Made by a program: the position numbers and the translations under genes. This document shows positions 2,873-33,627 of a DNA stretch of 33,627 nt, one piece after another; the first letter of the stretch is position 1, and each line of letters begins with the position of its first letter. This DNA is from an uncultured Reyranella sp. (GTDB lineage Bacteria > Pseudomonadota > Alphaproteobacteria > Reyranellales > Reyranellaceae), in assembly GCA_937915145.1 (NCBI GenBank), contig CALDNT010000291.1, positions 1 to 33,627 on the forward strand. The letters run 5' to 3'. Under the pieces are notes generated by a model. The model saw nothing but the letters and a program-made list of their open reading frames with translations. It made no database searches and had not been told where the DNA came from.

Positions 2873-3676
2873 GTGAGCGACGGGAAGTCCACCACGTGGG
2901 ACGCCAATCTCTATCTGAAGTTCGCCGATCATCGCGTGCGGCCGGCACTCGACCTGATGGGCCGTCTCGATCCGGCGAACGGCGCGCGGCCGGGCCACGC
3001 GATCTACGATCTCGGCTGCGGCGCCGGCAACATCTCGCGCATACTTGCCGAGCGGTTCCCGTCGGCCGAGATCGTCGGCATCGATTCCTCGGAGGAGATG
3101 CTGGCCAAGGCGCGCACCCAGACGGTCGACAGCCGCGTCGTTTTTGCCAAGGGCGATCTCGCGCACTTCGAGCCGGGCAAGCCCGCTGGCATTCTTTACA
3201 GCAATGCCGCCTACCATTGGCTCGACGGACATATCGACATGTTCCCCGGGCTGGTGAAGTTGCTGCCGTCGGGCGGTCAACTCGCGATCCAGATGCCGCG
3301 AAATCATGAGGCGCCGTCGCACGCGCTGATGCGCACCGCCGCCGAGGCAGGGCCATGGCGTGACAAGCTCGCGGGGGTGCGCACGATCCGTCCGGTACTC
3401 GATCCCGGGCACTACTATGAAGCCTTGAAGCCTCTCTGCTCCGATCTCGAAGTCTGGGAGACGATCTATCAGCAGCCGCTCACCGGCAAGGATCCGGTGG
3501 CGCAGTACACTGCCGGCACGGGGCTGCGGCCGTTCCTCGACCTGCTGCAGGAGCCGGAGCGGACGCAGTTCTACGAGACCTATGCCGCGCTGGTCGCCAA
3601 GGCCTATCCGACGCGCGCCGACGGCATCACCCTGTTTCCGTTCCGGCGCCTATTCATCGTGGCACGCCGCGCATGA
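2873..3676 (+). CDS. tam: Trans-aconitate 2-methyltransferase
   Basis: This 267-residue SAM-dependent enzyme methylates trans-aconitate, an inhibitory by-product formed from cis-aconitate, at a carboxyl group. The SAM-binding glycine motif DLGCGAGN begins at Asp46 and is followed by the acidic residue of motif II (IVGIDSS). The Tam-type opening (TTWDANLYLKF), the AYHWL region, the ATGLRPFL stretch and the ending FRRLFIVARR resemble E. coli Tam across its length. The GTG start at 2873 is supported by AGGAG at the end of the preceding gene; the open frame runs further upstream but that part overlaps that gene. Its stop overlaps the gamma-glutamyltransferase start by four bases, implying translational coupling. 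Confidence 0.88.
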   Translation: MSDGKSTTWDANLYLKFADHRVRPALDLMGRLDPANGARPGHAIYDLGCGAGNISRILAERFPSAEIVGIDSSEEMLAKARTQTVDSRVVFAKGDLAHFEPGKPAGILYSNAAYHWLDGHIDMFPGLVKLLPSGGQLAIQMPRNHEAPSHALMRTAAEAGPWRDKLAGVRTIRPVLDPGHYYEALKPLCSDLEVWETIYQQPLTGKDPVAQYTAGTGLRPFLDLLQEPERTQFYETYAALVAKAYPTRADGITLFPFRRLFIVARRA

Positions 3677-32331: not shown

Positions 32332-33204
32332 TTAGGTACCGATGGCGCGCACCAGCGCCACGATGTCGATGCCTTTGCTGTCGATGCCAAACCACTCGAG
32401 ATTGAGCGGAATCTGGTGGTCGAGCATGTGGCGGCCGTGATGGATCCTTCGTCCATGGGCGCGGGCGCGCTGCAGCAAGGGGGTCTCGGCTGGACTCATG
32501 ATGACTTCCGCCACCAGCACATCCGGGTCGAGCGTGACCGGGTCGAACGACAGGGGATCGCCCGGGCGAAGACCGAGCGGCGTGGCATTGATGGCGATGT
32601 GGATGCCCTTGGGCGGCGTGGCCACCTCGGCCACCGGTACGTCGGGATAGTGCTGGAGCAGGCGGTCGATTGCCGCTGCCGCCCGCGCCTCGTCGATCTC
32701 GGTCACCAGTAATCGCCCGACCCCGGCCTCGCAGAGTGCGGCGGCAATCGCGCCGCCGGCGCCGCCCAGGCCGACCAGCCAGACGCTGGCACCGCGCACG
32801 CGATGGCCCTGTGCCGCCAGGCCGCGCACGAAGCCGGTGCCGTCGGCGATGTCGCCGGCCAGGGTGCCGTCGGGGTCGCGCCGCACCAGGTTGACGCTGC
32901 CGGACGCCCGGGCCCGCGGCGTCACGCGCCCCAGCAAGGGCAGAATGGCCGTCTTGTGCGGGATGGTGACGGTGAAGCCGCCGAGATTGCGCAGGGTCGC
33001 GAGCGCCTTGAGCATTACCGGCAGCAGCGTGGCGTCACCTTCAAACGGCAGCCATACGGCATTGGCCCCGACTGCGGCGAAGACCTGCGGCATGACCGCG
33101 GTCATGCGGAGCTGGCGGATCGGATCGCCGATCGTGCCGTAGAGGCGGGTGGCGCCATTAACCGGAAAAAGACCGGTAAAAACGGGCGATTCCTCGGCGG
33201 TCAT
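32332..33204 (-). CDS. Shikimate dehydrogenase-like protein (AroE family)
   Basis: The 290-residue protein has the AroE two-domain layout. The N-terminal catalytic domain keeps Lys84 in FTVTIPHKTA and Asp121 in IADGTGF, and the C-terminal NAD(P) domain has VGLGGAGGAIAAAL and the closing DHQIPLNLEWFG. The part that holds the substrate in true AroE (an S-x-S pair after G-N-P-I-A-H) reads GDPIRQLRMT, so both serines are lost. It may act on quinate or another acid rather than shikimate. GGAGCAAC precedes the ATG. A terminator separates it from the peroxiredoxin gene upstream. Confidence 0.8.
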   Translation of the reverse strand: MTAEESPVFTGLFPVNGATRLYGTIGDPIRQLRMTAVMPQVFAAVGANAVWLPFEGDATLLPVMLKALATLRNLGGFTVTIPHKTAILPLLGRVTPRARASGSVNLVRRDPDGTLAGDIADGTGFVRGLAAQGHRVRGASVWLVGLGGAGGAIAAALCEAGVGRLLVTEIDEARAAAAIDRLLQHYPDVPVAEVATPPKGIHIAINATPLGLRPGDPLSFDPVTLDPDVLVAEVIMSPAETPLLQRARAHGRRIHHGRHMLDHQIPLNLEWFGIDSKGIDIVALVRAIGT

Positions 33205-33273: not shown

Positions 33274-33627
33274 CTAGAGATGCTTCAGGACATTCTCGGC
33301 CGTCGAAGCCTCGAAGGCGCCGGGCTTCTCGACAAGAAGCTCCTTGATCACGCCATCCTGGACGATCATGGCAAACCGCTGACTGCGCTTGCCAAGTCCG
33401 AATTTTGAACCATCCATGGTGAGACCCATGGCTTCGGCGAATTCGGCATTGCCGTCACCCAGCATGAGAATCTTGTCACCGACCTTTTGATCCTTACCCC
33501 AGGCGCCCATCACGAATGCGTCGTTCACCGAGATACACGCAACATCCGACACGCCCTTGGCCTTGATAGCATCAATATTGGCCAGAAAACCTGGCACATG
33601 CTTGGCGCTTCAAGTGGGGGTGAACGC
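33274..33627 (-). CDS. Prx5-type peroxiredoxin, probable selenoprotein with in-frame TGA (partial)
   Basis: The gene enters from the right edge; 117 residues are visible if the TGA at 33610-33612 is read through. Around it the frame codes for AFTPT-(TGA)-SAKHVPGFLANIDAIKAKG. In Prx5/AhpE-like peroxiredoxins the motif is FTP(T/G)CS, so the TGA replaces exactly the peroxidatic cysteine. Downstream the frame is intact through VACISVNDAFVMGAWGK (a second cysteine equivalent to Cys72 of human PRDX5), the RSQRFAMIVQDG stretch and the normal C-terminus. Selenocysteine at TPTU is known for bacterial peroxiredoxin selenoproteins. A conventional call would start at the GTG at 33597 and lose the active site. 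The alternatives are a sequencing error (TGC to TGA) or a pseudogene. The N-terminus lies outside the window. Confidence 0.85.
33568..33602 (-). promoter_or_regulatory. Candidate bacterial SECIS element
   Basis: On the minus strand, starting seven bases after the TGA, AGCAT (33602-33598) can pair with ATGCT (33572-33568), and within it GCCAG (33595-33591) pairs with CTGGC (33585-33581) around the loop GTTTT. The loop's first base is G followed by U, and 19 bases separate the TGA from the loop. Bacterial SECIS elements recognised by SelB lie inside the coding region just past the UGA, with a G early in a small apical loop at a distance of about 16-37 bases. The fit is good; function is inferred. 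Confidence 0.65.

Follow-up and report, generated by a model that had tools for sequence, protein, structure and literature searches.

Near one end of the DNA analysed here (the window; 33,627 nucleotides), a peroxiredoxin reading frame has a TGA codon at the position of its active-site cysteine. This raises the question of whether the codon is an error, the mark of a dying gene, or a signal for selenocysteine (Sec) at the residue that would attack peroxide. The window is one entire contig (C291, positions 1 to 33627) of a 4.77-Mb genome in 317 contigs (G000), and therefore the N terminus of the peroxiredoxin falls beyond its end. The features discussed below are the following.

33274 to 33627, minus strand: carboxy-terminal end (117 residues) of a Prx5-type peroxiredoxin, translated by read-through of TGA (translation, Pfam and structure alignment).
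33610 to 33612, minus strand: TGA, putative Sec codon in the peroxidatic Cys column (sequence, translation, alignments and relatives).
33579 to 33598, minus strand: SECIS-like hairpin, nucleotides 15 to 34 from the U of UGA (predicted fold and conservation).
33595 to 33597, minus strand: GTG inside the hairpin, the start for a standard gene caller and not a likely start (list of open reading frames).
33535 to 33537, minus strand: TGT, second Cys codon, 25 residues past the Sec, candidate resolving residue (codon +25 encodes Cys in the compared copies, Sec and Cys alike).
32332 to 33204, minus strand: shikimate-dehydrogenase-like gene, used as locus marker (adjoins the peroxiredoxin in several relatives).

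The final 354 bases of the window, on the minus strand, encode the C-terminal part of the peroxiredoxin. Redoxin (PF08534) was the sole Pfam match to this fragment at E values up to 0.001 (89 bits against a gathering cut-off of 26.6; E 3.5e-25). The full-length relative in genome G027 scored 125 bits with Redoxin and 42 bits with AhpC-TSA (PF00578; cut-off 26). Among solved structures, the best matches were 4f82, which its depositors named a "thioredoxin reductase," along with Prx5, one plant peroxiredoxin, and 1-Cys peroxiredoxins. The plus strand reads TCA at 33610 to 33612, that is, TGA on the minus strand, and the read-through product runs from AFTPT-U-SAKHVPG to LKHL-stop with U6 as its sole internal stop. 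In three structure alignments AFTPT[C/D] falls on the TGA; the D comes from 5k1g, which otherwise has 1-Cys-peroxiredoxin-like residues. An earlier note on this DNA had described a Prx5-type frame interrupted once, by a TGA placed on the catalytic Cys codon of an FTPTC motif, and both parts of that description held. The active-site motif is PxxxTxxC with U for C: relatives read PGAFTPTU, and the Pro-Gly codons of the window's own gene fall in a contig gap. The motif is written PxxxTxxU in the available text of a recent review (PMC13188914).

The remaining part of the gene lies at the end of contig C121, from ATGGCCAAAGTCGGCGACAAG through GGCAAGAAGGTGGT, where it adjoins a divergent AlgH-like gene. 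The gap between C121 and C291 splits the gene in its own genome, and comparison with genome G043 indicates that about 19 bases are absent; a further copy may lie inside the gap. The start of the peroxiredoxin gene is likely ATGGCCAAAGTCGGC, on C121. A standard caller would open the gene at the GTG at 33597 and run to 33274, and the earlier note had warned that the product would have no active site; the list of open reading frames bears this out with a protein of 107 amino acids. Elsewhere on the same contig (2457 to 2870, plus strand) we observed a gene whose product is carboxymuconolactone decarboxylase/AhpD-like (Pfam CMD) and has an ordinary CxxC.

Is the TGA real? Its position, 16 to 18 bases from the contig end, is one at which a sequencing or assembly error for TGC or TGT might be suspected. 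However, the same TGA is found in 23 other genomes, including the single-contig assembly G052 and that of Enhydrobacter aerosaccus ATCC 27094, and because of these 23 genomes an error is excluded in practice. Altogether, 24 of 75 Reyranellaceae genomes have a TGA copy, all at the same codon (six duplicate loci, L052, L053, L060, L061, L070, and L072, are out of all family counts). In a set of 143 copies collected by motif search (loci L022 to L151, some of them in twice), the aligned active-site codon was TGC or TGT in 113, TGA in 30, and nothing else. The in-frame UGA therefore has as its counterpart, in the column where the earlier note had proposed looking for Cys or U, the conserved redox Cys of its homologues.

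A nonsense mutation in a dying gene would also leave a single in-frame stop, and the end of the contig within the gene and the many relatives with a stop-free Cys gene could be taken in the same sense. The distribution of stops does not fit such decay: the 24 TGA copies in 24 genomes contain 24 in-frame stops between codons −45 and +110 (a shorter span where a contig end cuts a copy), every one of them TGA at the peroxidatic codon. Furthermore, we compared the window with its nearest relatives, G027 and G043, which share 97% protein identity with it. Downstream of the TGA, 31 codons differ synonymously and 3 nonsynonymously from G027, and 29 and 2, respectively, from G043. Because synonymous differences far outnumber nonsynonymous ones in both comparisons, the part downstream of the TGA is under selection as protein. 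This pattern by itself already makes a pseudogene very unlikely, and the conserved hairpin described next also argues against it. On the strength of the selection pattern and the recurrence of the TGA in independent assemblies, we rejected both the pseudogene and the sequencing-error readings.

If UGA is read as Sec, a SECIS element should follow it. The predicted hairpin of the window is formed by the pairs U15-A34, G16-C33, G18-C32, C19-G31, C20-G30, A21-U29, and G22-C28, with U17 bulged (33596) and a GUUUU loop that holds G23 (33590) and U24 (33589). Both prediction and conservation thus give the hallmarks of a SECIS hairpin: a position just past the UGA, a bulged U, and an apical G. The Escherichia coli fdhF SECIS likewise has U17 and a loop G23-U24, both counted from UGA, and according to the portion of PMC8659212 available, SelB binds fdhF at U17 and G23, and altering either abolishes UGA reading. 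The window differs from fdhF in the sequence of its upper stem and loop (GCCAG-GUUUU-CUGGC), and the minimum-energy fold of fdhF, counted in the same way, leaves U18 unpaired instead of U17.

For this peptide the fold alone is not rare, since 2117 of 20000 synonymous redraws of the window fold equally well, and the argument for the hairpin therefore rests on its conservation. The full hairpin was found in 24/24 TGA copies versus 0/20 TGC copies of the first set; synonymous redraws would produce it with a chance of 0.077 per copy, a figure to be read with the relatedness of the copies in mind. Loci L054 to L059, L062 to L069, L071, and L073 were left out of the counts of lower pairs, of positions 23 and 24, and of core pairs given below; when checked later, some were duplicate family copies, and they were not added. 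Every TGA copy keeps the four lower pairs together with U17 and G23. Positions 23 and 24 are GU in 21 copies and GG in 3 (L028, L140, and L034), and L028 and L140 have the upper stem in a shifted register. An identical 30-nucleotide segment is common to 18 of the 24. Over codons +1 to +10, the synonymous difference among 20 Sec copies was 0.039 versus a gene mean of 0.346, the least variable of 136 ten-codon stretches (rank 1); among 19 TGC copies it was 0.305 versus a mean of 0.279 (rank 88). L149 to L151, L028, and L140 were left out of this analysis.

We asked whether the organism has the machinery for Sec insertion. Its genome has one tRNA-Sec (71.4 bits, ARAGORN SeC, anticodon tca) on contig C277 together with selB (447 bits) and selA (553 bits), and selD (286 bits) is on contig C71. 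All of selA, selB, selC, and selD are present, as expected for a bacterial SelB-dependent selenoprotein. The selC gene follows selB at a distance of about 30 bases (end of the selB open reading frame, 3205; tRNA, 3172) and hence is outside it, whereas in other Alphaproteobacteria selC is predicted to be nested in selB, according to the part of PMC8124441 available. A phage-type integrase gene (Pfam Phage_integrase; L153, 1700 to 3031 on C277) adjoins the tRNA-Sec at 3081 to 3172, which suggests a genomic island with tRNA-Sec as its attachment site. A search of the same genome for an FDH-N/O-type formate dehydrogenase (TIGR01553) gave nothing over the cut-off (best score, 115 bits versus 814).

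In the 24 TGA genomes, selA was over the cut-off in 22 and a tRNA-Sec of at least 68 bits was found in 23, and each genome had at least one of the two. In G024, which lacks a strong tRNA-Sec match, the reading frame of the TGA copy shifts downstream, but that genome is 78% complete. Because selA is over the cut-off in 68 of the 75 family genomes, compared with 24 that have a TGA Prx5, the co-occurrence of gene and machinery inside the family is uninformative. One or more other selenoproteins presumably maintain the system in the remaining genomes. Across a sample of the class, selA was over the cut-off in 66 of 387 genomes.

Since Sec incorporation is deduced here from sequence, UGA might instead be read by another route, either near-cognate read-through or a reassigned code. 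However, the Sec machinery is complete, the SECIS-like hairpin lies in the fdhF register, and relatives have Cys at the same column. In addition, TGA is the terminal stop in some relatives' copies of the peroxiredoxin gene, and therefore TGA also ends genes in Reyranellaceae. We consider a non-Sec reading extremely improbable. The locus is almost certainly a selenocysteine-containing Prx5 (Redoxin, PF08534)-type peroxiredoxin gene of a Reyranellaceae-like alphaproteobacterium, in which UGA is read as Sec through the hairpin and SelB. The earlier note had proposed a Sec peroxiredoxin and had named a search for the four sel genes and an alignment with homologues as checks; its interpretation is supported, and every named test that was run came out in its favor.

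How would such an enzyme be made, and how would it work? From these features we infer that Sec is inserted and that the protein is a peroxidase, and we infer its reductant. The UGA in the peroxidatic codon would be read as Sec because the hairpin, about 11 to 12 nucleotides past the UGA, would present the bulged U17 and the loop G23 to SelB carrying Sec-tRNA-Sec. In the peroxiredoxin family, selenolate attacks peroxide and is recycled via a thiol. Here, the attack would yield a selenenic acid, to be reduced either by the conserved Cys that lies 25 residues further along or by glutathione, glutaredoxin, or thioredoxin. This Cys is present in both the Sec and Cys forms and could give a selenenylsulfide; alternatively, the protein may be a 1-Cys-type enzyme that works with glutaredoxin or thioredoxin.

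How are the Sec and Cys forms distributed? The family survey gave a peroxiredoxin match in 73 of the 75 genomes, and the group has Reyranella and Enhydrobacter aerosaccus as its named members. In the class sample, which was drawn evenly, TGA occurred in 3 of the best places listed, all of them in Reyranellaceae (G000, G052, and G071). The Cys Prx5 proteins of the same family have the same fold and flanking residues as the window's protein, with identity reaching 85% across the whole query in one Cys copy (G006, contig C13), but their genes have TGC or TGT where the window has TGA. In 12 genomes the Sec copy lies directly upstream of a Cys copy (G002 to G005, G034, G040, G050, G065, and G071 to G074). 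Five genomes show a Sec copy alone (G000, G001, G027, G043, and G070), to the extent that fragmented assemblies reveal it. The locus marked by the shikimate dehydrogenase gene holds Sec alone in G000, G027, and G043, Cys alone in others (e.g., G048 and G066), and both in G034, G040, and G050. Adjacent Sec and Cys copies in one genome (L135, L136, L138, and L139) have local motifs such as DLTKNG in common, as if by gene conversion.

This distribution leads to the question of which form came first. Among the copies of the first set, 15/15 TGT copies of the genus (L026, L029, L030, L032, L033, L036 to L039, L042, L045, L047, L048, L050, and L051), that is, Cys genes, had the full hairpin, versus none of the family TGC copies. 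At least the core pairs were found in 16/17 family TGT copies, 1/20 TGC copies, and 1/58 copies in other named loci (L074 to L131). Thirty further Cys copies from the same genus gave the full hairpin in 25/26 with TGT (among L187 to L215) and 0/4 with TGC; one TGT copy, L195 in G047, has lost it. With both sets together, the counts are 40/41 for genus TGT copies and 0/24 for family TGC copies, as expected of Sec-to-Cys reversions. Codons +1 to +10 of the 41 TGT copies had a synonymous difference of 0.072 versus a gene mean of 0.244 (rank 2 of 136; rank 6 for the first 15 copies alone). One 30-nucleotide segment is common to 27 of the 41, and nucleotides 13 to 33 after the codon's T in the commonest TGT segment are those of the TGA copy L028.

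We also considered whether UGU itself is read as Sec in these genes. This was unsupported: the tRNA-Sec genes examined, 20 in all and 12 of them from the initial 15 TGT genomes, uniformly have anticodon tca, and TGT in those 12 genomes should therefore mean Cys. The simplest reading of the TGT genes is reversion from TGA to TGT with a relic hairpin, and given so long-lived a relic, the hairpin in Cys genes might be retained for another use.

Trees gave a mixed answer. In trees built after removal of codons +1 to +11 and the codon of the active site (71 rows), Sec copies as one clade were rejected (p-AU 0.018). In those confined to the C-terminal part (69 rows), one Sec clade was not rejected (P = 0.264) and a single clade of all family Cys copies was rejected (P = 0.033). 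The trees exclude the 30 later Cys copies; L150 was dropped from them, and L149 and L151 were dropped from the C-terminal tree. Because the trees are mixed and gene conversion may blur them, we leave the direction of change at even odds. The proposal is thus a coin toss as it stands: that the Prx5 active site switches between Sec and Cys inside one family, an ancestral Sec gene, often beside a Cys twin, having reverted by TGA to TGT in part of the genus, with the reverted genes keeping an intact relic SECIS hairpin.

Sec-containing peroxiredoxins are already known. In the tables of PMC9312934 and PMC13188914 that were available, PrxU and its relatives are COG1225 Bcp/PF00578 proteins with a TxxU motif, and the accessible text of PMC9312934 cites a 2001 report of a Sec-containing peroxiredoxin from Eubacterium acidaminophilum. 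The window's protein resembles PrxU in its TxxU peroxidatic motif, its single Sec, and its membership in the peroxiredoxin superfamily, and its full-length relative passes the PF00578 cut-off; unlike PrxU, that relative is matched better by Redoxin. Against the NCBIfam PrxU model (NF040737), the G027 relative scored 21.3 bits, below the equivalog cut-off of 270, and the window fragment had no match at E values up to 0.001. The NCBIfam scan of the G027 relative returned only weak peroxiredoxin models, all far below their cut-offs. A Redoxin-family selenoprotein, Prx-like 3 (PF08534), has the same Pfam label as the window's gene, and the parts of PMC2398784 and PMC13188914 available describe it with UxxC; the tables of PMC9312934 and PMC13188914 give a Redoxin-family protein only in this form. 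In Prx-like 3 the Sec stands in UxxC, whereas the window's motif, TPTUSAKH, has no Cys three residues on. A literature search combining Sec with Prx5, Reyranella, or Enhydrobacter found no bacterial Prx5-type selenoprotein in titles and abstract openings, a scope mostly outside subscription journals.

With this locus, the selenoperoxidases gain a Prx5-type member that occurs in several genera of a single alphaproteobacterial family and that gene callers easily overlook. If the reversion proposal is true, the TGT genes would hold fossil SECIS elements of bacteria, observed once the change had taken place, and the family would offer a natural series in which to test what decides whether Sec is retained. 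The organisms of the Reyranellaceae are aerobic. According to the available text of a 2026 review (PMC13188914), selenoproteins are rarely retained in aerobic bacteria, and the Sec-to-Cys replacements on record concern primarily FdhA and SelD. With Sec-only, Cys-only, and Sec-plus-Cys genomes at one locus, and Cys genes that have the hairpin, both statements become testable in close relatives.
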